Shown: positions 3,506 to 20,497 of the stretch, in pieces
Numbering within the stretch: position 1 is the stretch's first letter
How the letters are laid out: each line of letters opens with the position of its first letter
Origin: Streptomyces cynarae
GTDB lineage: Bacteria; Actinomycetota; Actinomycetes; Streptomycetales; Streptomycetaceae
Length of the DNA stretch: 64,000 bases
Direction of reading: 5' to 3'
NCBI RefSeq assembly: GCF_025642135.1
Contig: NZ_CP106794.1
Coordinates: forward strand, 1 to 64,000
Notes under the pieces: model-generated
The model's database searches: none
Told to the model about the DNA's origin: nothing
Seen by the model: only the letters and a program-made list of their open reading frames with translations
Position numbers and translations under genes: made by a program

Positions 3506-4063
3506 ATGGGGCAGATCGAGCAGGGGCTGGAGCAGGCGTTGCGCACCCGGCCCGTTCCCTCGAGCACCGAGGCCCGTCTGCGGTTTCTGCTGGCGACGCA
3601 CAAGGGTTCCACCCGGAAGGTGGCCGTCGTGCTGGGGGTGTCGCAGCGCACCGTGCAGCGGTGGGTGACGAAGAGGCCCGGAGCGCGACGTCCGCCGGGT
3701 TCGCTGCATGTCCGGGCGATCGAGGAAGCGGTCCTGGCGCGGTGGCAGCCCCGTGTACGGGCCCGTCGGCGTGCACAAGCCGAAGCTAACGGGTTCGTCT
3801 TCCACACCAGGGCGCGATTCGGGTTCGCCGCGCCAGCAGGGTCGTCGGACGATCCGCGGGTGCGGTGGATCACCCAGGACCTGTCAGGAGAGGTCGCCCG
3901 GGAGCTGTTCGCCGCCCGGGACGCCGGCGCAGGCGAGCAGCAGCAGACGGTGATCCTGGCCCGGGCGCTGGGACACGCCTACTTTCGCGATCGGGGCCGC
4001 CGGGCCCACGGTCTGCATGTCTCTTTCAGCGACGTCGAGTTCGCTGACTTCTCGATCGGCTGA
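3506..4063 (+). CDS. tpg: Telomere terminal protein Tpg homologue
   Basis: The protein has 185 residues, the normal Tpg length. In Streptomyces, Tpg is covalently attached to telomere 5' ends and primes end patching of linear replicons. Family landmarks are visible in order: TRPVPSSTEARLRFLLATHK near the N-terminus, the HTH-like segment KGSTRKVAVVLGVSQRTVQR, ARWQPRVRARRR, ARFGFAAPAGSSDDPRVRWI, and the C-terminal YFRDRGRRAHGLHVSFSDVE. The ATG at 3506 has GGGGAGG six bases upstream. It is monocistronic. No tap gene (the usual upstream partner) is present; the neighbour is the HA helicase pseudogene. It is convergent with the next gene, with 32 bases between the stops. The identification rests on remembered family sequence. 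Confidence 0.85.
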   Translation: MGQIEQGLEQALRTRPVPSSTEARLRFLLATHKGSTRKVAVVLGVSQRTVQRWVTKRPGARRPPGSLHVRAIEEAVLARWQPRVRARRRAQAEANGFVFHTRARFGFAAPAGSSDDPRVRWITQDLSGEVARELFAARDAGAGEQQQTVILARALGHAYFRDRGRRAHGLHVSFSDVEFADFSIG

Positions 4064-4095
4064 GCCTGCCCCGTCGCGTAACCGCGTCAGGGTGT

Positions 4096-5206
4096 TCAGC
4101 GTCGCGAGGGCCTGACGCGCCTGGCTGGCATCGCTTCGTACCTCTCGGCTTCCTGCCGCTCGCGCCAGTCCCATTCCATACGGCCGGCCGGGCCTTTGCG
4201 GCGGGCCGCGGGCGGCTGAGGCGGGCGCAGCCTGGCCGTCTCGGCCACGCGCAGCAGGTGTGCGCGGTCTCCTGGCGTGGCGAGCAGTTCCTCGTCCTCG
4301 CCGGATAGGAGCCGGGCGAAGCAGGCCGCGGCCCGCGGGAAGATGCCCGCCCACGGCGGTACGGGGTAGGCGGCGCAGCCGTCGGTGTAACGGGCGCGGT
4401 CGTGCAGGGCGGGCGTGGCTGCGGCGTCGTCGTAGTCGCGGGGGCGGGCGGTGGCAAGTTGTTGCAGAGAGGCGCCGGTGAACAGAGCAGCGGTGAGGGT
4501 CGCGGCCAGGCTGGGATGTGCGGTCGCTGTGTGAAGCCGGTGGGCGACTCGCTGGGCGGTGGGCGCGGTGAGAGGCACGGGTGGTGGGCGGTGCCGCCAG
4601 GCGATCGGCGGTGGCGTGCACGGGTCGGCGCAGGGGCGGGGGCTGTCGTAGGAGACGAGGCGTTCCAGTGCCGGCAGGGTGAGCCACCGGCTGGCGGCGC
4701 GGCGGGCTCGTCTGGGGGCGGGGTTCGGCGATAGGCGTGCCGTAGTAGTGGCGGCGGGCGGCCGCGAAGTCGGCGGTGACGGAGTAGTCGACCGTCCGCA
4801 GGGCCTGATGCAGAGCGGCGGGAAGGTGAGGGCGGTGGCAGACCAGGGTCAGGTGGATACCAGCGAAGGCATGTAGCTGCAGGAGGCGCATCGTGCGGCG
4901 GGCAGTGAGGCGGTGAGCGCGCAGGACGGTCAGCCTGGTGACGGGCAGGGCGGTCAGCCAGGCAGTGGCGGCTTCCCAGGCGGGCTGACGACCGCCGGGA
5001 AAGCGGCCCGGGAGCAGGGGCGGTTTACCCAGGGCGACGAGAAGGTCGTGGGCGAGGCCGGTTTCGCTGGTGGTGCCCGGGCCGGGGTGCAGGGTGATCC
5101 GGCCGGACGGCGGATGGTGGGCGGCCAGAGCGGTGTGCGTGTGCAGCACGTCGTCATGACGGTCGAGAACCACGGTGACGGACGGCAGCGGCGGAGCAGG
5201 AGGCAT
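4096..5206 (-). pseudogene. TniB-like protein lacking Walker motifs, frameshifted
   Basis: The ATG at 5206 lies 11 bases after the tniB stop, so this is the last gene of the operon. The first half (to about 4720) contains TRLTVLRAHRLTARRTMRLL followed by GIHLTLVCHRPHLPAALHQA. These line up with the Walker B and sensor regions of the neighbouring ATPases (VLVVDEAQ and ITLVLCGAG), but VVDEA is replaced by TVLRAH and no P-loop is seen. Frame is lost in a CCCCC run at 4714-4718. The second frame then gives a plausible C-terminal half (RRARRAASRWLTLPALERLV through WDWRERQEAERYEA) to a stop at 4096. I infer a catalytically dead ATPase paralogue. The family is not otherwise recognised. Confidence 0.5.
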
Positions 5207-5217
5207 GGACGGTGTGG

Positions 5218-5961
5218 TCAGGCGAGGCGGCTGAAGGCCCAGCGCAGCAGCTCCTGGTCGACGCGGGCACGTCCCGTACGGGCCAGTGCGGTACGGGTGT
5301 GGGCGGTCAGCTGGGCCCGGGCGCGGAAGTTGCCGTGCGCGGCGTGCTGATCGGCGAAGGCGATGTCCTCGGGGTCGGCGTCAGCCCAGACCGGGTGGAA
5401 CAGCGGGATCACCTCCAGGACCTCGTCGGGTGTGAGGCGCGTGAACTGCTGCCAGATGAAGATGCGGGAGGAGAGCATCGGTTCGCGGCGCAGCACGGTG
5501 TGGCAGCCCGCGCCACCGACGAAAATGATGGCGAGCTGGGTTGAGGGTTCGTCCCAGAGGTAGCGGAAGTATTCGAACGCCTCCCCGCCTGGCCACTGGG
5601 CCTCGTCGACGAGGAAGGTACGGGAGCGTTCGGCCAGGGCCGTCTTCAGCAGACGGTCGAACTCGCTGGGGTGACGCGGTGGCTCCCCGGCCAGGTCGAG
5701 CGCGGTGAACAGTTCGTAGCGCACCGCGCGGGCCGTGGGACGGGCACGGAAGGTGATCTTTCGGACGTCCTCACCGGGTTCGAGTCCGCGCAAGCAGGTA
5801 TTGACGGCGAGGGTCTTGCCGAAGCCGGCGCCGCCATGGATGCACATCATCGCGCGGGCAGCGACCGTGTCGGTGATGTTCTCCCGGGCAGTGAGCAGGG
5901 CGCGGGTGGTGACCACGGAGGCGTCGGGCAGGTCGACGTACTGGTAGGTGGCCGCGGTCAC
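5218..5961 (-). CDS. tniB: TniB-like AAA ATPase
   Basis: A 247-residue ATPase of the TniB/TnsC/MuB type, which in this family activates the DDE transposase and takes part in target choice. Walker A is HGGAGFGKT (about residues 43-51) and Walker B is TFLVDEAQW (about 115-123). A sensor-1-like LAIIFVGGAG follows, then a helical C-terminal domain. The GTG start at 5961 overlaps the transposase stop by four bases (GTGA), implying translational coupling. It is intact, although the transposase before it and the gene after it both contain frameshifts. Confidence 0.85.
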   Translation of the reverse strand: MTAATYQYVDLPDASVVTTRALLTARENITDTVAARAMMCIHGGAGFGKTLAVNTCLRGLEPGEDVRKITFRARPTARAVRYELFTALDLAGEPPRHPSEFDRLLKTALAERSRTFLVDEAQWPGGEAFEYFRYLWDEPSTQLAIIFVGGAGCHTVLRREPMLSSRIFIWQQFTRLTPDEVLEVIPLFHPVWADADPEDIAFADQHAAHGNFRARAQLTAHTRTALARTGRARVDQELLRWAFSRLA

Positions 5962-7639
5962 GAGGCGTCTCCGTCTTCAGCGGTGGTGGAGGGTACGGCC
6001 CGTCCGGCCGGGCCGTCGGGGACTGCAGGGGCGGAGTCACGGCCTGGCGGGAGCGGGGCGGGGCGGGCCGGCGCGGCCAGAGAGGGCGGGGTGCGCCAGT
6101 CGGCCGGGGGTGCGGCGTGCGGGATGACGTCCGGCATCGCGAGCTGCGCGAGGTCGGATTCAGCAGGCTGGGCGAGTTCGGCCTCGACCTGCGCGGTGGT
6201 CAGCGCGCCGAGCCGCCGAGGGGGCTCGGCCTGGGTAGCGGCGGCATAGCGCTCGCGCTGCGAGGCCTCCAGGTCCTTCTTCAGGCGGCGCGCACGGGCG
6301 GCCCGCGTTTTCCGTACGGCACTGACCTGTTCCTCGGTGGCCTGATCGGCCAGGTCCGCGGGACCGAGGTAGCGGCCAGTGGCGGCGTGGTAGACCTCGA
6401 TGCGGTGGTCGTGGTGGGGCATGAAGCGGATCCGGACCTGGATACCGGCCTGGCCGGTCATCCACGGCCCCACGTAGTCGCGTCTCCTGAAACGGATGCC
6501 GCGGGTGGTCAGCATGCGAGTACCGGCGTCCTCCAGGGTGAACGTCCACAGATCCGCGGCCGGCACGTCCCGCAGCGGGGTGGGATCGTCCTGCCACGCC
6601 TGAAGCGGAGTCTTGCCCCGCAACGGCGCCGGGCGGTGCTCGGTGTTCCACCAGAGCGTCCAGGCCAGAAGCTGGGTGGTGAAGTCCTCGAAGCCCAGCA
6701 GCACTTCGTCCTTCGGACGGAAGGAGCGTTTGCCGGGGCACGGCTGGCGGGCGTAGCCGGGCAGCGCGGCCAGGAACATGCTCTCCACCGCACGGTTCAG
6801 GCCCTCCACGGTGCCCTTGAGGTGGGGGGTGTAGGCGGGCAGGTCCTCCACCGTCACGTCCAGGAGATCGAACGCTGCGGTCACCGTCCGGGACAGGAAG
6901 TCCTTGCCACGGTCCACCCGTACCTTCTCGGGCACGCCGCCGAACGGGCCGTAGGGGTCCTCGCGCAGCACGGCGGAGCGCAGCGCAGCGAGTACCGACT
7001 CCCGCGACGGATGCCCGGGCGTGACGGCAACGCCGGTGATCGCGTTGGTGGCGCAGTCGGTGAACCAGGTGATCCACGGCCTGCGGGCATGGCCGTCGAC
7101 GTCGACCAGCACCGCCGCCTGGACGTGGTCGGTCTCCCACACCTGGTTCCGCCAGCCCCGCAGCCGGGCCAGGAACACATCATGCTTGCGCGCCGCCCGC
7201 TCCCCACCTGCAAGCCCGGCCCGCTCCCCGGCGTCAGATCACGGCGGATCGCCCGGTGCAGCGTCGTCAGCGACGGTGCCTCCACGGGCGGGGACTGACG
7301 GGCAGCACGCACGACCAGCTCGCGGTGGACCGCCCGCACGTTCCCCTTCCACAGCGCCAACAGGCTCCGGACTTCGGGCGTGATCGTGAACCTCGCATCG
7401 ACTCGGGAGCGTGCGCCGGGGTAGGCGGCTGCGGTCTCATCGCTCTGAGCGGCGGCCAGCCAGCGCCACACCGTGCGCTCCGACACCCCCAGCGCGTCTG
7501 CAGCCACTCGTACGTGTCCTGCTGTCAGCTTCTTCCCTGCCCGTAGTGCGAGCAGCCGCCGCACAGCCGGACCACGCAGTGCCGTCCTCGACGCCACAGG
7601 CAGTCCGCCGCCTGCGCGGACCGCGTCATCGTCCTCCAT
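5958..7639 (-). pseudogene. tniA: TniA-like DDE transposase, one frameshift
   Basis: The ATG at 7639 follows GGGGAG. The N-terminal part has an HTH (LTAGHVRVAADALGVSERTV) and a second DNA-binding region. Frame is lost in a CCCC run near 7226-7229, where re-phasing restores LTPGERAGLAGGERAARKHD. The remaining 400 residues are an rve/Mu-type core with likely catalytic residues in VWETDHVQ (D), VRVDRGKDF (D) and GTVEGLNRAVE (E), then a beta-barrel-like region and a Pro/Ala-rich tail that would contact the ATPase. Family role: strand transfer of transposon ends. A GTG inside the second frame could still yield the catalytic part without the end-binding domains. Confidence 0.8.
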
Positions 7640-7728
7640 GTCAGCTCCCCTCACGCGGGTAGGACGTCGTCTGTTGCCAGGTGCCGGGACCGTACGATCG
7701 CCCTCCCGCCCGTGCAGAAGCGCTCCGG

Positions 7729-9006
7729 TCACAGCGGCGGCGCGACCCGCTTAAACAGTCGCCTCAACAAACCCCGGTCGACGGATGCGTCAGCAGTGGT
7801 GAGCAGCGCGTTCTGCAGGTGCGCAGTCAAAGCGGCCCACGTGCGGAACGTGCCGTGCGCGCACGACTGGTCGATCCACGTCAGATCCGGGGACGGGACG
7901 GTGCGCCACAGCGGATGGAAGCCAGTCACCACGGGCGCCACTTCCGCTGCGTCCAGGCGCGGAACCTCCTGCCACGCGACCACTCGCGACGCCAGCTGCG
8001 GCAGCCGGGACAGCGCCCGCTCGCTGCCCGCCCCGCACAACACCAGCGTGATCCGCGTGCCGGGGTGGTCCCACAGGCTCTGCAGGTACTCCAGGCACGG
8101 CGCGGGCAGGCGCTGCGCCTCATCGACCACCAGCACCCGCGCCTCACCCAAAGCTTCCGCGACCGCGGCGTCGGCCAGCGCCGACGTGTGCGGGAAGCGG
8201 CCCGGCAGCGCCAGAGCGTCGAACACCGCCCGCCTCATGCCGGCCACCGACGGGCGCACCGGTACCGGTACCCACGTCACCTTCCAGCCCGGGGGCACTT
8301 CGCCAAGCGCCATCCGCACAGCGACGGTCTTGCCCCGGCCCGGGTCACCGAACACACACACCGCGCCCTGGGTCGCCATCGCCTGCCCGACCGCCTCGGC
8401 CACCGCCCGCACCGACGACGTCCGCACCAACTGCGCGCCCGCCGGCAACGCCACACCCGCCAGCGCGCCGCTCTCCCCCACCGGCAAGCCGCTGGTCGCC
8501 TCTGGCCCGAGACGCGGTGGCGCAGACGTCTTCACCGCGCCGCCCCCATGCGGCCCGGCCAGGGCGAGGTCAGCCAGGGCCTGCCGCGTTTGCTGCTCAT
8601 CCCGCTCCCGCCGCACCACCGCGCGGTCCGGCAACACCCTGCCGGCCTCCAAATCCTGGCGCACCACCCGGTACAACGACGCCAGCGAGGGCACCTGGCC
8701 CCCGGCCTCCTTCATATGCCGGTGCAGCGCCGCCACGTTCCCGCCCGCCTGCGCCAGCACCTCCCACGCCTGGTCAGAGACCTCCAGCCGGGCCCGCGGC
8801 CTGCGCTCCATGCGGCCCTCGGCCCGCGCCGCCTCCAGCCAGCGCCACACCGTGCGCACATTCACTCCGCCGACCTGGGCGCCCGCACGCACATGCGCCG
8901 TCGTCAACGCCCCGGCCGCATCAAGCTCCAGCAGCCGCGCAACCAGCACCGGCCTGGACACCCTCAGCCCCGCCGTGACCTCACCCCACGCGCCCGGCTC
9001 CCCCAC
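7729..9006 (-). CDS. Transposase-type DNA-binding domain fused to TniB-like ATPase
   Basis: The protein has 425 residues. Residues 25-140 resemble the N-terminal DNA-binding region of the adjacent TniA: the HTH LTTAHVRAGAQVGGVNVRTV, then NVAALHRHMKEAGGQVPSLA and SLYRVVRQDLEAG, corresponding to NVRAVHRELV and SLTTLHRAIRRDL in TniA. After a linker, a TniB-type ATPase follows with Walker A FGDPGRGKT (about 235-243) and Walker B RVLVVDEAQRLP (about 293-304). Its ending, CAHGTFRTWAALTAHLQNAL, matches the TniB at 5218 (AAHGNFRARAQLTAHTRTAL). It is intact, unlike the following tniA. I infer an ATPase that reads transposon ends or another site directly through its own HTH domains. Confidence 0.75.
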   Translation of the reverse strand: MGEPGAWGEVTAGLRVSRPVLVARLLELDAAGALTTAHVRAGAQVGGVNVRTVWRWLEAARAEGRMERRPRARLEVSDQAWEVLAQAGGNVAALHRHMKEAGGQVPSLASLYRVVRQDLEAGRVLPDRAVVRRERDEQQTRQALADLALAGPHGGGAVKTSAPPRLGPEATSGLPVGESGALAGVALPAGAQLVRTSSVRAVAEAVGQAMATQGAVCVFGDPGRGKTVAVRMALGEVPPGWKVTWVPVPVRPSVAGMRRAVFDALALPGRFPHTSALADAAVAEALGEARVLVVDEAQRLPAPCLEYLQSLWDHPGTRITLVLCGAGSERALSRLPQLASRVVAWQEVPRLDAAEVAPVVTGFHPLWRTVPSPDLTWIDQSCAHGTFRTWAALTAHLQNALLTTADASVDRGLLRRLFKRVAPPL

Positions 9007-9255
9007 CGCACACCCTTCCGCCCACGGAAACCGTCACCGACCACCGTGCCGCCGTGCAGTCCTCGGAAGGATCAGAAGTGCCGTTCCCAAGACAGCGGAG
9101 CGGAGCGGGGTGTACCGCCCCATGACAGCCGCGACGGCACCACACACCGCCCCACGGCAGCGACCCCGCCCATCCTCAGCACCCCACCAGCGAAAACACC
9201 CAGTTCTGACGTCCCGTCACTGACACCCACCCACCGACACCAAACCGGAACATCG
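9007..9255. other. Intergenic/junction region upstream of the ATPase fusion gene
   Basis: This stretch lies between the start of the minus-strand operon and the HA-tail fragment. One end of the transposition module should fall here, because HA homology starts abruptly at about 9256. I could not identify a clear terminal inverted repeat. No credible gene is seen. Confidence 0.3.
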
Positions 9256-9322
9256 CAGCTGGGCGTATGGGCCTCGAACACCCGCGCGAGGCGAGGCAAT
9301 CTCGCCCAGGAGCAACTGGACG

Positions 9323-10712
9323 GGGAGTGTAAATCTAACGGCGGATCCGACGATCATGGGAGCGACGTCAAGTGACTGACACCGCCGTGGAGTTGGAGAC
9401 CGTGGAGCCTGTCGAGAGTGCCCAGTCGGGGCAGCCTGCGTCCGTGTCCGACGAGCAACTGGTCGCGATGCTGGTGGAGCGGGCCCGGTCGGAGGGGCTG
9501 CAGCTGACCGGGCAGGGTGGGCTGCTGCAGCAGCTGACCAAGCGGGTCTTGGAATCTGCCCTGGAAGGCGAGATCACCGATCACCTCGGTTATGAGAAGC
9601 ATGATCCGGCAGGGAAGAACAACGGCAACAGCCGTAACGGCACCCGTGCCAAGACGGTGCTGACCGACGTCGGGCCGGTCGAGGTGAAGGTGCCGCGTGA
9701 TACCGCCGGCAGCTTCGAGCCGCAGATCGTCAAAAAGCGGCAGCGGCGCCTGACCGGCGTCGATGAGATGGTGCTCTCTTTGTCCGCGAAGGGCCTTACC
9801 CACGGGGAGATATCGGCTCACCTCGCCGAGGTGTACGGCGCCGAGGTGTCCAAGCAGACCGTCTCCACCATCACCGACAAAGTGATGGAGGGCATGGCCG
9901 AGTGGCAGAACCGGCCGCTCGACCGCGTCTATCCGGTCCTGTTCGTGGACGCCATCAACGTCAAGATCAGGGACGGGAAGGTCGCGAACCGTCCGGTCTA
10001 CGTCGTGATGGCGGTGACCGTGGACGGCACCCGCGACATCCTCGGCATCTGGGCCGGCGATGGCGGCGAGGGCGCCAAGTACTGGCTGCACGTGTTCACC
10101 GAGCTGAAGAACCGCGGCCTGGACGACGTGCTGATGCTGGTCTGCGACGGGCTCAAGGGCCTTCCCGAGGCCGTGGAGACCGTCTGGCCTCGCACGATTG
10201 TCCAGACGTGCGTGGTTCACCTGCTGCGGAACTCGTTCCGCTACGCCGCCCGTCAGGACTGGGACAAGGTCGCAGGGGCCCTCAAACCCATCTACACCGC
10301 ACCCAGCGAGGACGCGGCCACCGAGCGGTTCCTGGAGTTCCAGGAGTCCTGGGGCCGGAAGTATCCGGCGATCGTGAAGCTGTGGTCGGACGCCTGGGCT
10401 GAGTTCGTGCCCTTCCTCTCCTTCGACGTCGAGATCCGCAAGGTCATCTGCAGCACGAACGCGATCGAGAGCGTCAACGCCCGCATCCGCAGGTCCGTCC
10501 GCGCTCGCGGACACTTCCCCAACGAAGCCGCCGCTCTCAAGTGCATCTACATGGCGCTGATGAGCCTGGACCCGACGGGGAAGGGCCGCAAGCGGTGGAC
10601 CATGCGCTGGAAAGCACCCCTGAACGCGTTCCAGATCGCTTTCGAGGGCCGCCTGACTCCGAGCAACAACTGACCATCAACAACCAAGATCAGCCGTTAA
10701 ATTGACACACCC
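9323..10712 (+). mobile_element. IS256-family insertion sequence, complete
   Basis: The element is 1390 bp. Its terminal inverted repeats span 9323-9347 and 10688-10712 and match at 21 of 25 positions; each begins GGG and contains TAACGGC. It is flanked by a perfect 8-bp direct repeat, ACTGGACG, at 9315-9322 and 10713-10720. IS256 elements make 8-9 bp duplications, so this is a clean and probably recent insertion. One transposase gene fills it. Confidence 0.92.
9372..10673 (+). CDS. IS256-family transposase
   Basis: The protein has 433 residues from the GTG at 9372. IS256/MULE-type DDE features are visible: the N-terminal GLLQQLTKRVLESALEGEIT, GNSRNGTRAKTVLTDVGPVE, the first Asp in VLFVDAINVKIRDG, the second in LMLVCDGLKGLPEAV, the CxxH block in QTCVVHLLRNSFRY, and the catalytic Glu in CSTNAIESVNARIRR. 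Length and motif order are normal and the frame is uninterrupted. It is likely functional, since the element's ends and target duplication are also intact. Confidence 0.95.
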   Translation: MTDTAVELETVEPVESAQSGQPASVSDEQLVAMLVERARSEGLQLTGQGGLLQQLTKRVLESALEGEITDHLGYEKHDPAGKNNGNSRNGTRAKTVLTDVGPVEVKVPRDTAGSFEPQIVKKRQRRLTGVDEMVLSLSAKGLTHGEISAHLAEVYGAEVSKQTVSTITDKVMEGMAEWQNRPLDRVYPVLFVDAINVKIRDGKVANRPVYVVMAVTVDGTRDILGIWAGDGGEGAKYWLHVFTELKNRGLDDVLMLVCDGLKGLPEAVETVWPRTIVQTCVVHLLRNSFRYAARQDWDKVAGALKPIYTAPSEDAATERFLEFQESWGRKYPAIVKLWSDAWAEFVPFLSFDVEIRKVICSTNAIESVNARIRRSVRARGHFPNEAAALKCIYMALMSLDPTGKGRKRWTMRWKAPLNAFQIAFEGRLTPSNN

Positions 10713-10900
10713 ACTGGACGCGCTCCGGGAGCTAGGCATGGAGTGGGCGTAGGAGCCCGGGGTTTGCAGCTTTCCGCCGAGCCGTGGCTGGTGGCCCATA
10801 ACGAGTGAGGCCGATTGACGGTTATGGGAGTTGCAGATCAACAGACCAGGCGTGGTATGGGCGGGGGAATCGGAAGTTGGCGCCGTTAGGGGCGGGGGCG

Positions 10901-13900
10901 ATGCCCCTGGCAGGTGGGGTGTGGCGGGTGGCACCGCTGCAAGGTGAGATGACGCAGTCGTTTCTGAGCCGGGTGGCTGCACGCTATGGCGTAAGGCTCA
11001 GGGATCTGCTGGCGGCAATCGCTGAGGTAGGCGGGCTGTCGAACATCACCGGTCAGACGCGGTTGGACAGTGAGGTGTATCTGAACCGGCAGGCTCGGGA
11101 TCGGGTGTCCCAGCTGTGCCGAGTTCCGGAGCGTCATCTGCGGTGGGCGCTGCCTGCCTGGGCACAGGAGGAGCCTCGAAAGCGGTTCGCCGCAGGTCCA
11201 GCAGCGCAGTTTCATCACACTGCGGAGAAGGTTGTGCCCTGGGGGCCGGCGTGTCCTGAGTGCGCGGCGCGATCAGCCGGGCGCGCCGAGGGCGCGCGCT
11301 TGTACCTGGAGCCGCAGCAGCGGGTGTGCGCGTTGCACCGTCGGTGGCTGATGCAGGTGCCGGGCACGGCCGGCCGGGCGGTGAGGTTGCCGGCCGGGGG
11401 CGAGCAGTGGGTGCAGGCCCAGCGTCGTCATGCGAGGTTGCTGCGTCATTCCTCGGTGGCTGTGGAGGCGTTCGAGGTGGCTGCAGCGGTGACTGCCTCG
11501 TGGTGGTGGCAGGCGTGGCCGTTGGAACATGTGTGGCCCTCTCGGCTACGGAGCCTTGGCAGTGGACGGATCGATCCGGAGGTGTGGTGGGTCCTGGCGC
11601 GGGAGCTGGTGACGTACCCGGAGACGGTCGCGCTCGCCACGCTGCTGGCCGATGACGGGTTCCGGCAGCGGCTGATCGCCGACGCCCGGGGACATGCTCC
11701 GTACCGGCTGGCTGATCTGCCGGTGCTCCTCTCGGCGGTTGCGCGCTGCGTGGGGCGCCCCTGGTACAGGGAGCAGCTGGCGAGCGAGGTGTCGGGGCCT
11801 TTGTTCGCGTGGGCGTATCAGTGCGTGCGGCCGCCGCGTCGCATCGGGCACGGAGAGCAGGCGATGTGGGCGGTCGCTCCGGCGCACCGTTTGCGCCCGC
11901 TGGTTGACGAGCTCGCCGCGCGGATGTCCGTCAGGGCCGACGGGCAGAAGGCGGAGGGCAAAAGACGGCGGGGACTTAACCGCCAGTCGGATGAGTCCTT
12001 CACGGTCGGCCTGGCGCATGCGGGCCAGTACGTGCGCGAACACGGGAACCTTGCTGTTCAGAAGGACACCATGGTGGGGTCCTTCCGTTTTGGGGAATGG
12101 CTGCACAATGTGCAGACCAGGGCCTGGGCTCTGTCGCCGGATCGTGTCCGGGCGCTGATGGCCTTGGACCCTTGGTGGAACGTCCCCCGGTCGGTGCAGT
12201 GGCAGCGCTCGTACTACCGGGCACGCGATCACGCCGCCGTGGACGGTCCGCCGGATGCGGCCGCAGGGTTTGCCGGGACCGCCGTGCTGAACGGTGAGTG
12301 GCTGTATCTGCAGTGCACCCACTACGACGCTCTCCACCCCGAGCAGCAGCGTCTGCTGGCGGACATCGGCATCACAGCCGAAGCAGCCCGTACCGCCCGG
12401 CCGCGGCGGGCCAGCATGCGGGCGCGTTTCGAGACAGGATTGGAGCATGCCCGGGCCTACGCCGCCGAGCATGGCCACCTGGCGGTCTCCGGCAAGGGGG
12501 CGGTGCACGAGGGGTATCCGCTGGGGTGCTGGCTGGTGGCCCAGCGCAGTAAGGCGCACCGGGCTGCAAGGCCCACCGAGCGCTCCCGAGCGCTTGCTGC
12601 CGTGGACCCGTGGTGGAACCCGCCCTGGCCGCTGTCATGGCAGAGATCCTTCGCGCAGGTCCGTCGGCTGGTGCAGGACGGACACGCACTGGATGCGCAG
12701 CGTGGCTTTCCGGGCCTCGAAGCGGAGCTCGCACTGTGGTTGTCGCACCAGTGCGCCGTGTACGGGAGTCTGCAGCGTGATCAGCAGTGCCTGCTGACCG
12801 GTATCGGCATCACGGCTGAAGAAGCCGGCAAAGTCCCCATGACGGCAGAGGAGGCCAAGGCCGCCAGCCAGGCCGCAGCACGGCTGGGTGGCTCGGCCGG
12901 CCTGGCCAGCGCCCGGTCCTTCGCCGCGGCACGCGGGCACCTGGCGGTGCCCTTCGACTATGTGCATGAGGATTATCCGCTGGGCCGCTGGCTGGTAGCA
13001 CAGCGCAGCAAGGAACGCCGCCACCTGCGGGCGACGGGAACCGCGTGGCCGCCCGGGCTGCACCTGACGGAGCTGGACCCCTGGTGGAATCCGCCCTGGC
13101 CCTTCCCGTGGCAGCGCCACTACCAGCTGGCCCGCACGCTATGGCAGGAGGGCAGGCTGCTCCTGCCCGGCCAGCACGCCCCGCCCGGCGACCGGGACGA
13201 GGATGAAGATCCGCTGATGGTGTGGTTGCGCCGGCAGTGCGCCCGGCACAATGTCCTGCACCCCGAACAGCAGAACCTCCTCGCCGGCATTGGGATCACC
13301 GCCGCCACCGCCCGCACCGTCACCGCGTCCCTCACCACTCCCACCCCAGGGGAGATCGGGCTGGCCCATGCCCTCAGCTACGCGGCCGAACACGGGAACC
13401 TGGCCGTGACCGACCGCACCCGCCACAACGGCCACCCCCTAGGAAGCTGGCTCCTGCGCCAGCGCCAACGCGCCGCCGACGGGCGCATCGAGCCCTCCCG
13501 GATCACCGCGCTCAACGCCCTTGACCCCCACTGGAACCCGCCCTGGCCCCTCGCCTGGCAACGCGCCTACCACCGGGCCCGCACCGCCACCGACAGCAGC
13601 ACCCTGACCAGCACCGAACGCCGCTGGATCAGGACACAAGCACAGCTATGGGACAGCCTCCACCCCGCCCAGCAGCAACTCCTCGCCCACCTCAGCACCA
13701 CCGGGCCTGCCGCCATACCCACGCAGGCCCGCACAACTGCGCGCCGCTACCCGACGGGTGGGGGCCTGCCCCACGCCCGCGCCTACGCCACCCTGAACGG
13801 GCACCTCGCGGTATCCATCCACACCCACCAGGACGGTTTTCCCCTGGGACGCTGGCTCGTGCAGCAGCGCCGCAAAGCCCGCTCAGGCCAGCTGTCCGCC

Positions 13901-14122
13901 CACACCCTGCAAGAACTGATCATCCTCGACCCATGGTGGAACCCACCCTGGCCCTTCACCTGGCAACGGAACTACCAGCTGGCCCGTGCCGCCCACGCCA
14001 CAGGCCAGCCTGGCCCGGAGGGCTTGCGGCGCTGGGCGGACCGGCAGATCACCCAGTGGGACCGGCTCCACCCGCATCAGCAGGCGCTGCTGACCACCGC
14101 CCGCATCACTACTGCTCCGTGA
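10901..14122 (+). CDS. TniQ-like zinc-finger protein fused to five HA repeat units
   Basis: The protein has 1073 residues from the ATG at 10901; the frame is open from 10805, so the start is uncertain. Residues 1-260 look like TniQ, the target-selection adaptor of Tn7/Tn5053-type elements: PLQGEMTQSFLSRVAARYGV, a zinc-binding pattern in WGPACPECAARS and QQRVCALHRRWL, and a downstream helical region. From about residue 363 to the end are five large units starting near 363, 510, 665, 818 and 955. Each contains HARAYAAEHGHLAV-like, G.PLG.WL..QR, LDPWWNPPWP..WQR and LHPEQQ.LL..IGIT blocks, the signature of helicase-associated (HA) domains. There is no helicase core. HA domains are presumed DNA binding, so I infer a TniQ whose target site is read by tandem HA domains. 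It is intact. Confidence 0.8.
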   Translation: MPLAGGVWRVAPLQGEMTQSFLSRVAARYGVRLRDLLAAIAEVGGLSNITGQTRLDSEVYLNRQARDRVSQLCRVPERHLRWALPAWAQEEPRKRFAAGPAAQFHHTAEKVVPWGPACPECAARSAGRAEGARLYLEPQQRVCALHRRWLMQVPGTAGRAVRLPAGGEQWVQAQRRHARLLRHSSVAVEAFEVAAAVTASWWWQAWPLEHVWPSRLRSLGSGRIDPEVWWVLARELVTYPETVALATLLADDGFRQRLIADARGHAPYRLADLPVLLSAVARCVGRPWYREQLASEVSGPLFAWAYQCVRPPRRIGHGEQAMWAVAPAHRLRPLVDELAARMSVRADGQKAEGKRRRGLNRQSDESFTVGLAHAGQYVREHGNLAVQKDTMVGSFRFGEWLHNVQTRAWALSPDRVRALMALDPWWNVPRSVQWQRSYYRARDHAAVDGPPDAAAGFAGTAVLNGEWLYLQCTHYDALHPEQQRLLADIGITAEAARTARPRRASMRARFETGLEHARAYAAEHGHLAVSGKGAVHEGYPLGCWLVAQRSKAHRAARPTERSRALAAVDPWWNPPWPLSWQRSFAQVRRLVQDGHALDAQRGFPGLEAELALWLSHQCAVYGSLQRDQQCLLTGIGITAEEAGKVPMTAEEAKAASQAAARLGGSAGLASARSFAAARGHLAVPFDYVHEDYPLGRWLVAQRSKERRHLRATGTAWPPGLHLTELDPWWNPPWPFPWQRHYQLARTLWQEGRLLLPGQHAPPGDRDEDEDPLMVWLRRQCARHNVLHPEQQNLLAGIGITAATARTVTASLTTPTPGEIGLAHALSYAAEHGNLAVTDRTRHNGHPLGSWLLRQRQRAADGRIEPSRITALNALDPHWNPPWPLAWQRAYHRARTATDSSTLTSTERRWIRTQAQLWDSLHPAQQQLLAHLSTTGPAAIPTQARTTARRYPTGGGLPHARAYATLNGHLAVSIHTHQDGFPLGRWLVQQRRKARSGQLSAHTLQELIILDPWWNPPWPFTWQRNYQLARAAHATGQPGPEGLRRWADRQITQWDRLHPHQQALLTTARITTAP

Positions 14123-14233: not shown

Positions 14234-14971
14234 TCAACTGGCCTTCACCACTGCAGCGCTGTCCACCCATCTCGCCAAGATGCTGAAGGCGGCAAGCTGC
14301 TCCAGAGCCTCGTTCTCTTCCAGTTCCTCATCCTCTTCGTGGGCGATGGGGTTGCGGATGGCCGCGTAGACGCCCCGCGCAAAGTTTCCGGCACCGTCGT
14401 GGCGATTTTTGAACGTATCGCCTCCGTCGTTTTCGCACAGGCGCAGGCGCGGGTGCCCTGGAGTGGGTGGGTTGGTGGAGAAAGCGTCGGAGAGGAGCTT
14501 GGCCTCGGAAGCGTCCCGCCGTTCGAGCTTCGCCTGGGCTTGGGCATTAACCGCCCTGGCAGCAGCGCCGACCGCTTCACGGAAGTGGCCGCTGCTCCAC
14601 AAGCCTTGCACGCTGCCCCAGACCCATGAGTGCAGTGTGGATGCGTCAAGCTGGGGTGCGCCGCTGCCGAGGTTCTCCTGTAGCTCCTGCTCAGCTTCCA
14701 GGAGGGCGATCGCGCGGTGCGCTGCCTCGCGATGGCGCCACATCGGTTGCCTCTTGGCCTCTTCCCACTCTGCGGATCGCCAGTCAGGGAGCACACGGTC
14801 CAAGATCTGCTCCACGATCTGGGCCGCAGCTTGTACTTCAGCCTTTGAGCGATCGAACTTGTAGCCCCAGAAACCAATGGTGTTTGGGGCGTCTGGCACG
14901 TACGTCACCTTGGCGGTAACGAGGAAGGCCCTCAGCTTTTCGATCGCCCATTCTTTGTTCATCTGTGTCAT
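14234..14971 (-). CDS. HEPN-type TIGR02391 family protein
   Basis: The protein has 245 residues from the ATG at 14971 (an in-frame ATG at 14989 is also possible). The C-terminal third carries the TIGR02391 pattern: LRLCENDGGDTFKN, then a Gly/Ala-rich helix, then YAAIRNPIAHEEDEELEENE and ALEQLAAFSILARWVDSAAV. RNPIAH fits the R-x4-H motif of HEPN RNases. Many HEPN proteins act in phage defence or toxin systems; that function is inferred here only from the motif. The gene is convergent with TniQ-HA (stops 111 bases apart) and divergent from the TnsA-like gene, a typical passenger position in a transposon. Confidence 0.65.
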   Translation of the reverse strand: MTQMNKEWAIEKLRAFLVTAKVTYVPDAPNTIGFWGYKFDRSKAEVQAAAQIVEQILDRVLPDWRSAEWEEAKRQPMWRHREAAHRAIALLEAEQELQENLGSGAPQLDASTLHSWVWGSVQGLWSSGHFREAVGAAARAVNAQAQAKLERRDASEAKLLSDAFSTNPPTPGHPRLRLCENDGGDTFKNRHDGAGNFARGVYAAIRNPIAHEEDEELEENEALEQLAAFSILARWVDSAAVVKAS

Positions 14972-15147
14972 GGCCCGATGCTGCCGCATGCCACCGACAT
15001 CGCCTCACCTGCACCGAGACTCGGCCTGCGTCAAGGGAGGTGCACCGGTGTCCTGGCGGGATGGACGCGCCGGCATGGCGGAGCGCCGTTCACCCATTCG
15101 GGTGACGGATTCGGATCACGGCGTTCAACAGCCTTGCACGCGCTTGG

Positions 15148-15987
15148 GTGTTGGGGATGGAGGGGCACGGGCACAGCAAGCTGGTGCGGCAGGCTGCCGC
15201 AGGGGGCAGCAGTGCGGGAGTCGAGGCCGCCTTCGCCACTGTTGCCGGGCATGTGACGCAGTTGCCGTGGGACCAGGCGGCGGTGTCGGTGCAGTTCGAG
15301 GACCTGGCGCCGGTATCCGCGTTTCCGGTCGTGCCGGGCCGCCGGTGGGGGCCGGGCTGGTGGTGGTCGGCGACCACCGGACGGCATGTGGTGCACGGTT
15401 CGGCAGCGATGCGCACCCAGTTGATGGTCCTGGACCGGGACCGGGAAGTGACCGGCCTGTCCGCCCGCCCGGTACGGCTGCTGTGGCGTGATCCCGACGG
15501 GCGGGTGCGGTCGTGGGTGCCTCAGCTGTTCGCCCGGTACGCCGACGGCACTGGCCTGTTCGCCGACTGTCCCTCCAGCCCGGCCGCCGGCGGGGACAGG
15601 GCGCAGCGGGCGCGGATGGTCCTGGAGGCGGCATGCGCGCGCGTGGGCTGGTCGTACCAGCGCCTCGAGCCACCTCCACCGGTGGTGGCGGCGAACCTGC
15701 GGTGGCTGGCCGGCTACCGCCAGCCCCGTTATCAGGGCCCGCCCCAGCTGAGGGCCGCGCTGGCTGACGCGTTCGCCGTGCCCCGGCCATTGGCCGACGG
15801 GGCGGCATCGGTGGGTGATCCACTGCAGGTACTGCCAGCCCTCTATCACGCGCTGTGGTCCGGGTGCCTTGCGACGCGGCTCGATGAGCCGCTGCATGAG
15901 CGGGCGCTGATTTGCGCTGAGGCAGAACGTGGTGAAGGCGTCGAAAGGCGGCTTAGCAGCGTCGGCGGCGATCCGGAGAGAGGTTGA
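15148..15987 (+). CDS. TnsA-like protein with apparently lost catalytic residues
   Basis: The protein has 279 residues from the GTG at 15148 (alternative ATG at 15157). The arrangement GRHVVHGSAAMRTQLMVLDR, VTGLSARPVRLLWRDPDGRV and SWVPQLFARYADGTGLFADC follows the TnsA endonuclease N-terminal domain. In active members these positions read ES.LER, then a PD followed by a second acidic/Lys motif after the strand. Here the Glu is replaced in GSAAM, PD is PQ, and the last strand ends FADCPS. I infer a catalytically dead TnsA, so 5' strand cleavage may be absent. The C-terminal half (residues 150-279) is helical and would be the TnsB/TnsC contact region. The stop overlaps the next start by four bases (TTGA). 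Confidence 0.6.
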   Translation: MLGMEGHGHSKLVRQAAAGGSSAGVEAAFATVAGHVTQLPWDQAAVSVQFEDLAPVSAFPVVPGRRWGPGWWWSATTGRHVVHGSAAMRTQLMVLDRDREVTGLSARPVRLLWRDPDGRVRSWVPQLFARYADGTGLFADCPSSPAAGGDRAQRARMVLEAACARVGWSYQRLEPPPPVVAANLRWLAGYRQPRYQGPPQLRAALADAFAVPRPLADGAASVGDPLQVLPALYHALWSGCLATRLDEPLHERALICAEAERGEGVERRLSSVGGDPERG

Positions 15988-18149
15988 GCCCAGTGGGCGG
16001 TACACACGGTAAGAGCCGGCGGCCGGTGGTGGAGGTCGGCGCGCACGTCGTCTACCGGGGGCAGACCTGGCAGGTCGCTGCGTTGCAGGGCCAGCGGGTC
16101 TACCTGTTGCAGGAGGACGGCACTGAAGAAGCCTTGCTGTTGGGGCGGTTGTTCGCCGATCCCGGCTTCGAAGTGGTGGGCGCGCAGGCGCCGGCCACGG
16201 TGCCGCAGTGGGGGCTGTTTGAGACCGTTCCGCTGGCGGCCCAGCAGCGGGCGCTTGCGTGGCTGCCCCACATCCGGGAGGTTGAGACCGGGTGGCCGCA
16301 CCCTGAGGGCAGCCGCGAGGGGCAGGCGATGCGGCCGGAGTACGACCCGGAGCGGTGGACCCTGGCGCAGCGGGATGCGGCCAAGGCGAAGGAGCTGACC
16401 GCGCTCGGCTTCACCCGGGTGACCCGCACGACGGTCGAGCGGATGCGGCACGCCTACCGCAAGCAGGGCTTGTGGGGGCTGGTCGACAAGCGCACGGTGC
16501 CGACACGCGGCCGTCATCCGACGGGGTATGCCGACGAGCGGGTCGTGGCCGCGGTGCTGGAGGCGCTGCGGCGTCAGCGGGGCCGGTCGAAGGGGACGGT
16601 GAAGGGACTGCAGGTGCTGGTCGGGCAGATCCTGGAGGACACGCACGGGCGCGGGGTGGTGGAGATGCCGTCGCGGTCGTCGTTCTACCGGCTGGTGAAC
16701 GCTCTCGCCGACCCGGCCGAGCGTCCGGGACGTCCCGCACGCACCGCCACCGCACCCGCCCGCGCCTCGTCGGCGCCGGTGGTGCTGCGGCCCGGGGAAC
16801 AGGTGCAGATCGACACCACCCGCCTGGACATCATGGCCGTCCTGGAGGACGGCAGCCTGGGGCGGCCGGAGCTGACCGTCGCCGTCGACGTCGCCACCCG
16901 CTCCGTCCTGGCCGCCGTCCTGCGCCCGCACAGCACCAAAGCCGTCGACGCCGCCCTGCTGCTGGCGGAAATGGCCGTCCCCCATCCCGCCCGTCCCACC
17001 TGGCCCAAGTCACTGCATCTGTCGCGGGCCGAGGTGCCCTACGAACGGATGCTGTCGCTGGACGAACGGCTGGAGGGCGCGGCCGCCCGCCCGGTGGTCG
17101 TGCCCGAGACGATCGTCGTCGACCGCGGCAAGATCTACCTCTCGCAGGGCTTCGTCGCCGCCTGCGAGACGCTCGGGGTGAGCGTGCAGCCCGCCCCTCC
17201 GAGGCGACCGCAGGCCAAGGCTGTGGTGGAGCGGACCTTCGGCGCGATCAACGACCTGTTCTGCCAGCACGTCGCCGGCCACACCGGCTCCAACCCCCAG
17301 CGCCGCGGCTTGGCGACGGCGGCCGAGGCGCGGTGGACGATCCCGCAGCTGCAGGACTTCCTCGACGAATGGATCACCTGCGGCTGGCAGAACCGGCCCC
17401 ACGACGGACTTCGCCACCCCGTCCTTCCCAAAACCGCCCTCACACCGAACCAGATGTGGGCCGCTCTGATCACCATCAGCGGCTACGTGCCCGTCCCGCT
17501 GACCGGGGCCGACTACCTCGAGCTGCTGCCGGTGCGATGGCAGCCCATCACCGAACGCGGCATCCGCCTCGACTACCGCACCTACAACCACGAAGTCCTC
17601 GACCCCCACCGCGGCCAGCGATCCGGTGTCGCCAGCAAAGACAGCAAGTGGGAGGTCCACCACAACCCCCACGACGCCCGCCAGATCTGGGTCCGCCTCA
17701 CCGACGGAAAGCTCCACGAAATCCCGTGGATCCACCGCGACCACGTCCACCAGCCCTTCAACGACGCCCTCTGGCGCCATATCCAGACCGAGGTCGAACA
17801 ACGCGGGGACCGCGAGACGCACGAAGCCGACCTCGCCGACGCCCTCGACCAGCTCCTGCGCCGCACCCGCCACCCCGCCGGGACCGAGCACAACACCCGC
17901 CGCCGCAGAACCCCCCGCTCCGCAAGTACGGCAGCACAGCTGCCCGATCTGCCGGGCCAGCGGCGCCTCCTCGACACGGAGACCGCACCGGCCCCGGCAC
18001 CGGACTGGAGCGAGAGCCTGGACGACCTCATCACCGTTGATGCGGCGGCCGACACGGACACGAGCGACCCGCAGGGGGCGGGCGTGCTGGCTGCCGAGGC
18101 AGGCGGATACGGGCTGTGGGACGCCGAAGCGGAGGCCGAGCAATGGTGA
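15984..18149 (+). CDS. tniA: TniA/TnsB-like DDE transposase
   Basis: The protein has 721 residues with a TTG start at 15984 that overlaps the TnsA-like stop (a GTG at 15993 is the alternative). It has an N-terminal beta-rich domain, then HTH DNA-binding domains around 125-240 (LTALGFTRVTRTTVERMRHA and later SRSSFYRLVNAL). The rve core carries likely catalytic residues in QVQIDTTRLDIMAV (D), TIVVDRGKIYLSQG (D) and QAKAVVERTFGAIN (E). A Mu-type C-terminal barrel and a long Pro/Asp/Ala-rich tail follow, the tail probably binding TniB. It is uninterrupted and longer than the TniA at 5.9-7.6 kb, so the two modules are not recent duplicates. Confidence 0.9.
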   Translation: MSPVGGTHGKSRRPVVEVGAHVVYRGQTWQVAALQGQRVYLLQEDGTEEALLLGRLFADPGFEVVGAQAPATVPQWGLFETVPLAAQQRALAWLPHIREVETGWPHPEGSREGQAMRPEYDPERWTLAQRDAAKAKELTALGFTRVTRTTVERMRHAYRKQGLWGLVDKRTVPTRGRHPTGYADERVVAAVLEALRRQRGRSKGTVKGLQVLVGQILEDTHGRGVVEMPSRSSFYRLVNALADPAERPGRPARTATAPARASSAPVVLRPGEQVQIDTTRLDIMAVLEDGSLGRPELTVAVDVATRSVLAAVLRPHSTKAVDAALLLAEMAVPHPARPTWPKSLHLSRAEVPYERMLSLDERLEGAAARPVVVPETIVVDRGKIYLSQGFVAACETLGVSVQPAPPRRPQAKAVVERTFGAINDLFCQHVAGHTGSNPQRRGLATAAEARWTIPQLQDFLDEWITCGWQNRPHDGLRHPVLPKTALTPNQMWAALITISGYVPVPLTGADYLELLPVRWQPITERGIRLDYRTYNHEVLDPHRGQRSGVASKDSKWEVHHNPHDARQIWVRLTDGKLHEIPWIHRDHVHQPFNDALWRHIQTEVEQRGDRETHEADLADALDQLLRRTRHPAGTEHNTRRRRTPRSASTAAQLPDLPGQRRLLDTETAPAPAPDWSESLDDLITVDAAADTDTSDPQGAGVLAAEAGGYGLWDAEAEAEQW

Positions 18150-19240
18150 ACACCTCACCGGGCACGGGCAATGCGCCGGCGGGCAGGTCCCCGTCGGCAG
18201 TGGACCGGCCTCCCGGTGCCGCGGCAAGCACCGCCGGCGACGCCGCTGATGCGCAGCAGCAGTCGGTGACCACCTGGGACGGTTTCCAAGCCTTCGCCAC
18301 CACCCCCGTGGCAGCCCCTCCCCCGCCCGGCGCGCCGCCCCGCAGCCTCGCCGAACGCCTCGCCTACCACTCGCGGTTCGTCACCGTGCGCACCCCGGCC
18401 ATCGACACCCTCGCCAAAAACGTGCGTACCCTGATGATCCTCGGCCGCCACCAGACGGTCACCGCACGGCCGTCCCTGATCGTCACGGGCCCCGCCGGCG
18501 CGGGGAAAACCACCGCGCTGCTCCAGGTCGGACGCGCCTGCCACCTCGCCCACACCCGCCGCCACGGCCCCACGGCAGCAGCCGGGCAGGTGCCCGTCGC
18601 CTACGTCCTGGTCCCGCCCGCCGCCAGCGCCAAGACACTGGCCACCGAGTTCGCCCGCTACCTCGGCATCCCCATCGCCGCCGGCATGTCCCAGGCTCAG
18701 ATCACCAACGCCGTCTGCCACACCTACACCACCGCCCGGGTGCAACTGGTGATGATCGACGAGGTCCACCGGCTCAACCCCCGCACCACCACCGGCGCCC
18801 AGACCGCGGACCTGCTCAAAGACCTCACCGAACGCATCGGCGCCACCTTCGTCTACGCCGGCATCGACGTCACCGCCACACCCCTGTTCACCGGAGTACG
18901 CGGCGCGCAGCTCGCCGGACGCGCCTCCCTCATCGACTGCGCCGCCTTCCCCGCCCGCCTCGGCGACCAAGAGCCCTTCCGCGACCTCGTCAAAGCCATG
19001 GAGAGCGCACTCGACCTGCGCCACCACCGGCCCGGAACCCTCCCCCAGCTGGCCCCCTACCTCCATGAGCGAACCGCCGGCCGCATCGGCAGCCTCGCCC
19101 GCCTCATCCGCCAGGCCGCCATCACCGCCCTCATCGACGGCACCGAACGCATCACCAAAACCACCCTCGAAGCAGTCCGCCTCGACCACCTCGCCGAACA
19201 GCACTACCGACCCCGAAACCGCAGTACCAGCACCCCTTGA
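18143..19240 (+). CDS. tniB: TniB/TnsC-like AAA ATPase
   Basis: The protein has 365 residues from the ATG at 18143, overlapping the tniA stop by seven bases. A disordered Pro/Ala-rich N-terminus of about 75 residues precedes the AAA core. Walker A is VTGPAGAGKTTALL (about residues 114-127), Walker B is QLVMIDEVHRLNPR (about 196-209), and TFVYAGIDV fits sensor 1. The C-terminal helices end with DHLAEQHYRPRN. Family role: ATP-dependent target-complex formation linking TniQ to the transposase. It is intact, and its stop is overlapped by the tniQ TTG start. Confidence 0.9.
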   Translation: MVNTSPGTGNAPAGRSPSAVDRPPGAAASTAGDAADAQQQSVTTWDGFQAFATTPVAAPPPPGAPPRSLAERLAYHSRFVTVRTPAIDTLAKNVRTLMILGRHQTVTARPSLIVTGPAGAGKTTALLQVGRACHLAHTRRHGPTAAAGQVPVAYVLVPPAASAKTLATEFARYLGIPIAAGMSQAQITNAVCHTYTTARVQLVMIDEVHRLNPRTTTGAQTADLLKDLTERIGATFVYAGIDVTATPLFTGVRGAQLAGRASLIDCAAFPARLGDQEPFRDLVKAMESALDLRHHRPGTLPQLAPYLHERTAGRIGSLARLIRQAAITALIDGTERITKTTLEAVRLDHLAEQHYRPRNRSTSTP

Positions 19241-20190
19241 CCCGGACAGACGTCACGGCCCGGGATACGGCCGCAGCCGTCCCCGCGCAGCGCAGTGTCG
19301 TCACCGCACGCACATGGCTGCAGATCCCGTCAGCCGCGCCGGGCGTGCTCCACGTACGGCCGCTGACCGGCGAAGCGACCGCCTCATACGTGCAACGGCT
19401 TGCCAGCGCCTATCAGCTGACGCCTCCCCAGCTCCTCGACGGCGTCGGCATCACCCTCCACGGTCACGGCACCCTGCCGGCAGCCGAACTCCACCTCAAT
19501 CACAACGCGGCCCGGCACCTCGCCGCCCTGGCCCGCACCCCACTCCCCCACCTAACACGCGCCCTACCCCACCTCGCCCTGCTGGGCAACGCCCACGACA
19601 CCCAGGCGGCCGCGTCCTGGAAGCGGATGGAGGCCGGGCAGCAGCCCGTCCGCGCCTGCACTCTGTGCATCCGCCACCGCAGTCACGGCACCACCGACAC
19701 CGCCTGGGTTCATCGGCCGCCGCACCGGCTGATGTGCCCACGCCACCAGCAAGCCGCCCCCGACCCGCGGCTCACCTCTCCTGGCCAGACCTGGACTGCG
19801 CCCGAACTCGCCGCCCTCCACCACGCCCACCAGCGCCTTCTACGCCACCCCCGCGCCAGCACCGCCTGGGCCGCGGCGCGCGCCATCACCACACGCTGGT
19901 ATGACCACCAGCAACACCTCACCCACCGCTGGCACCCCGCATCAACCAGCTCTGGGCGACCAACCCCCACCTGACCAGTACAGGCAGCGCCTCCCCCGCA
20001 CTCCTGACCCGCGACCTGGTGATCTATCCGAAAACCGTTGCCCTCGCCCGCGCACTCGCCACCCTGCCCACCGGCCACATCGCACCACCAACGACGCCTC
20101 AGCCTCATCGCCCACCGGCTCGGTCTCACCCGCCTGACGCTCAGCGCAAACGACCCACTCCGCGTCTTCCTCACCCACACGCGCCACTGA
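19237..20190 (+). pseudogene. tniQ: TniQ homologue with two frameshifts
   Basis: A TTG at 19237 overlaps the tniB stop; a later GTG near 19346 is also possible. The first frame carries the TniQ start LHVRPLTGEATASYVQRLAS and a zinc-binding pattern, RACTLCIRHRS then HRLMCPRHQQ. Frame is lost in a CCCC run near 19934-19937. The next frame gives INQLWATNPHLTSTGSASPA and DLVIYPKTVALARAL, and is lost again near 20082. The last frame ends RRLSLIAHRLGLTRLTLSAN to the stop at 20190. Unlike the TniQ at 10.9 kb it has no HA repeats. If the breaks are real, the module depends on the TniQ-HA protein. Confidence 0.7.
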
Positions 20191-20302: not shown

Positions 20303-20497
20303 TTGGGTAAGGAAGAACGAGACCTGGCACGGAGAGCCGAAGAGCAGGGCTTCGAGGTCAGGCGCACAAGCAGGGGCCACTACCTGGTCACGAAGGACGG
20401 CCGGCCGGTGACGACCATCTCCGGCACATCGTCTGACCACCGCGCCCTGAAGAACGCGAAGGCTCAGCTCAAGAGGGCCGGGTTCGTCGACAAGTAG
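20303..20497 (+). CDS. HicA-like small protein
   Basis: The protein has 64 residues from a TTG at 20303, supported by AAAGAGG at 20291-20297. It reads GKEERDLARRAEEQGFEVRR, then TSRGHYLVTKDGRPVTTISG, then a basic helix. The alpha-beta-beta-beta-alpha pattern and the conserved His in the GHYLV strand resemble HicA-type dsRBD-fold mRNA interferases. The HTH gene 82 bases downstream would be the cognate regulator or antitoxin, by analogy with toxin-antitoxin pairs. The similarity is to fold and motif only; toxicity is inferred. Confidence 0.55.
   Translation: MGKEERDLARRAEEQGFEVRRTSRGHYLVTKDGRPVTTISGTSSDHRALKNAKAQLKRAGFVDK

Follow-up and report, generated by a model that had tools for sequence, protein, structure and literature searches.

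The first 64,000 bp (positions 1–64,000, here called the window) of a linear plasmid of Streptomyces cynarae (NZ_CP106794.1, 308,446 bp) carry the gene for TniQ-HA, a protein in which a TniQ domain is followed by tandem helicase-associated (HA) repeats. Comparison of insertion sites leads us to the view that TniQ-HA probably selects the target, in the manner of TnsD, for a telomeric Tn7-like transposon that has a single end and homes to HA-repeat-coding DNA. Three features are central to this view:

10901–14122, plus strand: TniQ-HA, candidate TnsD-like target selector of 1073 aa, with the TniQ domain at about 10922–11344 and the HA array at about 11978–14119.
21538–21754, plus strand: inner transposon end, defined from an 11-copy alignment; its outermost bases are CCGTCACA, reading 5′-TGTGACGG on the minus strand.
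21755–22351, plus strand: target remnant, the 3′ portion, coding for HA repeats, of an older HA-helicase (ttrA-like) gene, 83% identical to window positions 2767–3356.

As the inner end is flanked by the 3′ HA-coding part of a helicase gene, we conclude that the element inserted into an older gene of this kind, whose 5′ part and telomere are gone. The junction in the window lies 57 nt downstream of the VGxW/F codons of the repeat, as read in homologues. Junctions of related elements were mapped on intact homologues in the same way, and spacing was measured from the [LIV]GxW codons. The ends fall into the families V2 (that of the window), V3a, V3b, V3c and V1; M2 denotes the end of a second module described below. 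The sources were the fetched loci and end searches that covered 392 genomes for each of V2, V3a and V3b, 295 for V1 and 315 for M2, with no separate end search for V3c. For V1 to V3, 90 unique junctions remained of 122 candidates once 12 duplicates, 6 candidates with short flanks and 14 that did not reach the end had been removed. For M2, 33 candidates yielded 27 (4 in which the end was not reached and 2 duplicates removed).

A spacing of 57–61 nt downstream of [LIV]GxW was found in V2 (10/20), V3b (10/25) and V3c (2/5), once among the 27 V1 junctions, and in none of the 13 V3a and 27 M2 junctions, the latter read from junction contexts. The difference between V2, V3b and V3c (22/50) and V1 and M2 (1/54) is highly significant (Fisher p 9e-8). 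Because many early loci had been found with HA-containing peptides, the count was repeated on junctions from the end searches, which involve no HA selection; here 14/32 junctions showed the spacing versus 0/21 for V1 (p 3e-4). The mean distance was 59.3 nt with a standard deviation of 1.5 nt, and 22 of the 24 plus-strand HA-coding junctions of V2, V3b and V3c fell into this range, compared to 2.5% expected for a random HA-coding position. Each of the four HA repeats in the helicase serves as a site. For sites in the first repeat (n = 10), the distance to the upstream GxW was 58–61 nt and that to the next W codon 32–41 nt; the tighter upstream distance points to GxW as the landmark. Past the helicase gene, no match between these ten loci was seen, so the insertions are independent.

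Flanks were also scored by a uniform test (150 nt, blastx, E ≤ 1e-3). HA-helicase or TniQ-HA coding DNA was found in 6/20 flanks for V2, 6/13 for V3a, 11/25 for V3b, 5/5 for V3c and 5/27 for V1, and in 5/27 for M2 under a looser limit (300 nt, E < 1e-2). None of 900 shuffled flanks scored. Random windows of the fetched loci scored in 392/1500 cases, a background that is biased since many of these loci were fetched for their HA-helicase or TniQ-HA genes. Four V2 sites with short tails escaped the uniform test, namely L117 (E 3e-5), L069 (twice) and L132 (E 0.2–1.1).

The HA address is used by four diverged TniQ-HA clades and is not confined to helicase genes. At three loci (L064:15688, L153:1500 and L156:1691) inner ends lie in the HA repeats of other tniQ-HA genes, at 59–60 nt, so TniQ-HA elements appear to cut each other's selector gene. 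A further TniQ-HA clade uses a fixed site in the helicase-core part instead of the HA part: the V3a junctions of L052, L061, L081 and L087 are at one codon, 59–60 nt downstream of the LSEAI codons by hand count, and for L052, L081 and L087 flank similarity stops at the end of the helicase gene. TniQ-HA clades therefore differ in their address, with the target gene and a spacing of about 60 nt in common. The fixed distance was observed for whole elements, not for TniQ-HA by itself. Three further inner ends (L044:14952, L047:15583, L051:13483) were seen in the helicase-core region in opposite orientation, which is a different address.

A later plasmid set gave 21 matches, 13 of which were fetched and yielded 9 new junctions (one was already counted and three were repeats). 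Two of the eight unfetched matches were already in the set, and the others are, according to the tables, near-copies, incomplete ends or at the same place as a known locus. It had been predicted beforehand that HA-coding junctions would show a spacing of 57–61 nt, and this held for both such junctions (58 and 59 nt). The original prediction had considered HA-coding DNA or telomere-proximal DNA as the target and had proposed a survey of genomes with mapping of insertion sites. The survey revealed a common coding site in 22/50 junctions of three end families, so that HA-coding DNA stands as a recurrent target with a fixed site; as the only address it is too narrow, since over half of the flanks lack the site and one clade uses the helicase-core site.

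The inner end is the only transposon end that we detected. Homology with six other loci ceases at 21754 or at most 8 bases past it, and one contig terminates there. All these V2 copies terminate in ..TCACA, which is the TGT/ACA-type terminus typical for Tn7-like elements; V3 families terminate in ..GACA, and V1 in ..GCGTTA or ..GCGTCA. A scan of seven loci over their first 24 kb detected no second, inverted end (nhmmer with the 11-copy profile; best minus-strand row E 9.2), and with a single end a target-site duplication cannot be seen. In complete relatives the other boundary of the element is the replicon end, and one of these (L114) starts with telomere-like palindromes, as judged by eye and by folding. 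Telomeric transposons are defined by one transposon end and a telomere as the other boundary, and carry genes for telomere maintenance (tap/tpg or a telomere resolvase). The window element matches this definition by its one end and by the replicon end in complete relatives; the telomere-related cargo noted in these elements is the ttrA-like helicase gene.

A search with the TniQ part matched 41 of 199 genomes of the genus at E ≤ 1e-10, and a close homologue (E ≤ 1e-70) is present in 19 of them, including the genome studied here. Among the other close-homologue genomes, eight are assembled into no more than 3 contigs, and each of these carries a copy close to a chromosome end, within about 52 kb in six and at most about 70 kb, by rounded lengths, in two. 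The plasmid collection contributed 18 records at ≥80% coverage, and the genome contig search 75 loci from the best 80 of 108 places. The location of copies in the eight genomes and on linear plasmids agrees with the telomere-proximal position suggested earlier.

TniQ-HA is encoded by a single unbroken frame of 1073 codons, starting with ATG at 10901 and ending with the stop at 14122. From the sequence alone it had been described as a zinc-finger TniQ adaptor that continues as five HA-type units of about ten sub-blocks and lacks a helicase core, and profile searches confirmed both parts. Pfam TniQ (PF06527) matches residues 8–148 with 28.7 bits, a narrow pass of the cut-off of 27, and a genome-wide profile search recovered the same region with 34.5 bits; of three relatives tested, two were just below the cut-off (25.9 and 22.4 bits). 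The zinc-finger residues C118, C121, C143 and H146 are invariant in 30/30 aligned sequences including the window copy, an alignment of long homologues that were selected for their TniQ match and length and through HA-containing search peptides, so that shorter ones are unrepresented. HA (PF03457) scores 207.8 bits, above the cut-off, in six stretches according to Pfam, and the genome search places five HA matches in the frame. No Pfam match to a helicase core (DEAD/Helicase_C) was obtained at E ≤ 1, in contrast to the HA helicase of a relative, which matches ResIII and DEAD above their cut-offs. An AlphaFold2 model of TniQ-HA (mean predicted local distance difference test score, pLDDT, 81.5; predicted template modelling score 0.51) suggests an N-terminal part that coincides with the TniQ match, and ten three-helix bundles corresponding to five tandem HA units of two sub-blocks each. 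An isolated HA unit was predicted with a mean pLDDT of 94.8. As also suggested earlier, further HA copies exist in the window, at 2356–3345 and 22094–22339 (Pfam) and as short fragments at 9259–9322 and about 10714–10752 that Pfam does not list.

Downstream of TniQ-HA, the following genes were assigned:

15148–15987, plus strand: TnsA-like endonuclease subunit (NF033179, 281.6 bits, cut-off 110; no Pfam match).
15984–18149, plus strand: TnsB-like DDE transposase (Mu-transpos_C 27 bits, cut-off 21.7; rve 31.2 bits, just below the cut-off of 32.6), with D, D and E motifs seen by eye.
18116–19240, plus strand: TnsC/TniB-like AAA ATPase (PF05621, 56 bits).
19237–19974, plus strand: short second TniQ of 245 aa (PF06527, 44.1 bits).

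By these assignments TniQ-HA is encoded beside TnsA, TnsB, TnsC and a short TniQ in a Tn7-like element of the linear-plasmid arm, the operon context expected for a TniQ adaptor. Gene order varies among relatives, and annotated linear plasmids show three arrangements. The first is helicase, TniQ-HA, medium TniQ, TnsABC (L109, and L111 with other genes between), the medium TniQ being annotated as DNA-binding protein and scoring 20 bits, below the Pfam cut-off. L114 resembles the window with helicase, TniQ-HA, TnsABC and short TniQ, and L112 and L113 have TnsABC followed by TniQ-HA. Within this last arrangement, TniQ-HA is the sole TniQ seen in the sequenced stretch examined at L045, L048, L049, L050, L054, L056, L058, L059, L063, L064 and L112. 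Among these, L049 and L063 were seen from the helicase gene to the inner end and have the HA site as target; L064 also has an HA target, its inner end being a weak match 4 kb away. Since TniQ-HA is the only TniQ in some elements with an HA target, it is probably a TnsD-like selector. Some smaller genes were also noted. An open reading frame (ORF) at 14234–14989 on the minus strand, by eye a TIGR02391-type cargo gene, lies between TniQ-HA and TnsA; the two genes are nearly adjacent in L033. The stretch from the short TniQ to the inner end, a region common to L033, holds a small HicA-like ORF (20303–20497, plus strand, by eye) and the gene for a 271 aa protein without Pfam match (20580–21395, plus strand).

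Based on these data we propose that TniQ-HA would find HA-repeat-coding DNA, normally in the HA-helicase (ttrA-like) gene beside another telomere and sometimes in the tniQ-HA gene of another element, and would dock near the [LIV]GxW codons. Via TnsC, TnsAB would be placed so that the inner end joins 57–61 bp downstream by strand exchange. Everything outside the insertion, from the 5′ portion of the helicase gene out to the old telomere, would be lost, while the incoming element would bring its own helicase gene and telomere.

Several observations weigh against this proposal. No [LIV]GxW-spaced site was found for 28 of the 50 V2, V3b and V3c junctions; within V2, 9/20 have no identified target and one lies in a tnsC gene. 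Three of the 22 spaced junctions (L069 twice, L132) are very short C-terminal matches (E 0.2–1.1), and the HA-coding junctions of L042 and L094, both in plus orientation, miss the spacing. The spacing occurs once in 27 junctions of V1, some members of which have TniQ-HA, and the flanks of L045 and L112 are without HA-coding DNA. The landmark and the range of 57–61 nt were picked after the data had been seen, and about half of the later junctions had been predicted to be HA-coding, when 2/9 were and 7/9 were not. On the protein side, the HA units are not strongly basic (net charge −1 to +7), and no DNA-binding fold was recognised.

In a second explanation the site would be chosen by another factor, be it TnsC, a host protein or the short TniQ, and TniQ-HA would serve a different step, e.g., telomere bridging. 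The second, short TniQ of the window element and its close relatives fits this idea, as do the V1 elements that have TniQ-HA and rarely use the site, and L045 and L112, which have TniQ-HA alone and sit outside HA-coding DNA. We nevertheless regard it as rather unlikely, since L049 and L063 with TniQ-HA as sole TniQ sit at the HA site, and the target is common to four diverged TniQ-HA clades. L049 and L063 also provide the best support for site choice by TniQ-HA.

Insertion may alternatively be merely telomere-proximal, the HA helicase being the commonest gene there and its loss being tolerated because the element brings a copy. The V1 and M2 ends that also land in HA-helicase or tniQ-HA genes (5/27 each) and the score of random windows, biased as it is, are in line with this view. 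However, recognition is needed to account for a distance that stays at 57–61 bp in tniQ-HA genes and across four distinct repeats in diverged helicases, and for four V3a insertions at one homologous codon, and the spacing occurs only once in the 54 V1 and M2 junctions. This makes the explanation an unlikely one.

Homologous recombination between HA-coding copies without transposition has many potential partners (20 HA-coding places in the whole genome by genome search) and is very improbable, since homology of the elements ceases at the same ..TCACA or ..CGACA terminus beside differing HA positions, and the terminus itself is not HA-coding. That TniQ-HA is a decaying chance fusion, as the split homologues L110 and L108 might indicate, is equally hard to believe, given that TniQ and HA residues are invariant in 30 aligned long homologues from several clades and the window copy is intact.

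Returning to TniQ-HA as selector, the HA array itself might be the address reader and contact the DNA. We put this forward tentatively: a TniQ gene would have captured the HA repeats of a telomere helicase, gained recognition of HA-coding DNA with or after them, and now home to the gene family from which its reader came, replacing telomeres repeatedly. The outer part of the plasmid arm contains the following features:

927–3357, plus strand: present telomere-proximal HA helicase (ttrA-like), frame broken, within the 9.26-kb terminal inverted repeat.
3884–9006, minus strand: second transposition module in the terminal 9.26 kb, with two AAA ATPases, an rve/Mu-transpos_C transposase and a helix-turn-helix protein.
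9050–9256, plus strand: inner end of the second module, followed by HA-coding DNA of the ttrA-like gene of the TniQ-HA element.
9259–9322, plus strand: what is left of the ttrA-like gene that belonged to the TniQ-HA element, coding for the last HA repeat (LGVW..), 75% to L033 3559–3622.
9372–10673, plus strand: IS256/Mutator transposase gene (PF00872, 424.8 bits).
About 10714–10752, plus strand: final codons of the ttrA-like remnant, LDALRELGMEWA and stop.

LGVW-type codons after the module end and the last helicase codons before TniQ-HA indicate that the element's own helicase gene was once directly upstream, as in L033; the IS256 insertion divides the remnant. The TniQ-HA element was therefore cut by the second telomeric module, which explains the extra HA tails in the window. 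In this reading the arm records two rounds: an old ttrA-like gene was cut at 21754, and another kind of telomeric module later cut the element's own ttrA-like gene at about 9256. The M2 end was detected in 29/315 genomes, and the 440 aa protein of the module (3884–5206) has no Pfam or NCBIfam match. The terminal inverted repeats of the plasmid (9.26 kb) are 99.75% identical, and different DNA adjoins this module end on the right arm. A second V2 inner end was observed near the other end of the plasmid (275799–276015, minus strand), where it adjoins HA-coding DNA of a first repeat with a spacing of 61 nt; tblastn with the window proteins detected no genes of the TniQ-HA element on the right arm.

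Hsieh et al. (2025, Science, eadp1973) reportedly described telomeric transposons of linear bacterial genomes, in Streptomyces with one transposon end and the telomere as other boundary. Telomeric transposons as a kind are already published, and no priority is claimed for TniQ-HA or the HA-coding target; in a partial literature collection, no title or abstract dealt with either. Exchange of telomeres between Streptomyces replicons has been proposed (PMC8743542, seen in part). If our proposal is true, it provides a concrete mechanism for this exchange, explains the HA-helicase tails that litter replicon ends, and extends the few address readers of the Tn7 family by a modular repeat array. Should DNA be read by the HA repeats, the function of the HA domain could be put to the test.

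The closest parallel is Tn7, in which the C-terminus of TnsD reads the coding end of glmS and TnsC sets side and distance (PMC11406308, seen in part). According to the accessible parts of two sources (PMC11406308, PMC10293859), the homing proteins TnsD of Tn7 and TnsD/TniQ of CRISPR-associated transposons (CASTs) resemble TniQ-HA in combining a TniQ domain, a zinc site and a long C-terminal extension, encoded beside TnsA, TnsB and TnsC, and Tn7 TnsD also in directing insertion to a fixed distance from conserved coding sequence. TniQ-HA differs from TnsD in that tandem HA units form its extension. The target at telomeres is DNA that codes for HA repeats, any of four of which can serve, instead of glmS, and a second transposon end was not found in TniQ-HA elements. 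By analogy, the logic of Tn7 fits here, with the codons of HA repeats as the address. Type I-E5 CASTs are likewise located on telomeric transposons and, in the portion of the source available, are said to be without TniQ/TnsD (PMC12669027), whereas TniQ-HA is central here. With TtrA, the telomere-associated helicase of Streptomyces, TniQ-HA has the HA repeats in common, provided that the HA helicases of these elements are TtrA (PMC8743542), a naming that rests on their position and domains; unlike TtrA, TniQ-HA has no helicase core. The ttrA-like gene is both cargo and target of the element. Tn6022, with TniQ and TnsF, is another TniQ system relying on a DNA-binding module from a different protein family, as the HA array may do here; from what the source offers in part (PMC10293859), the module is a separate XerH-like protein in Tn6022, whereas in TniQ-HA the HA repeats are fused to the TniQ domain.

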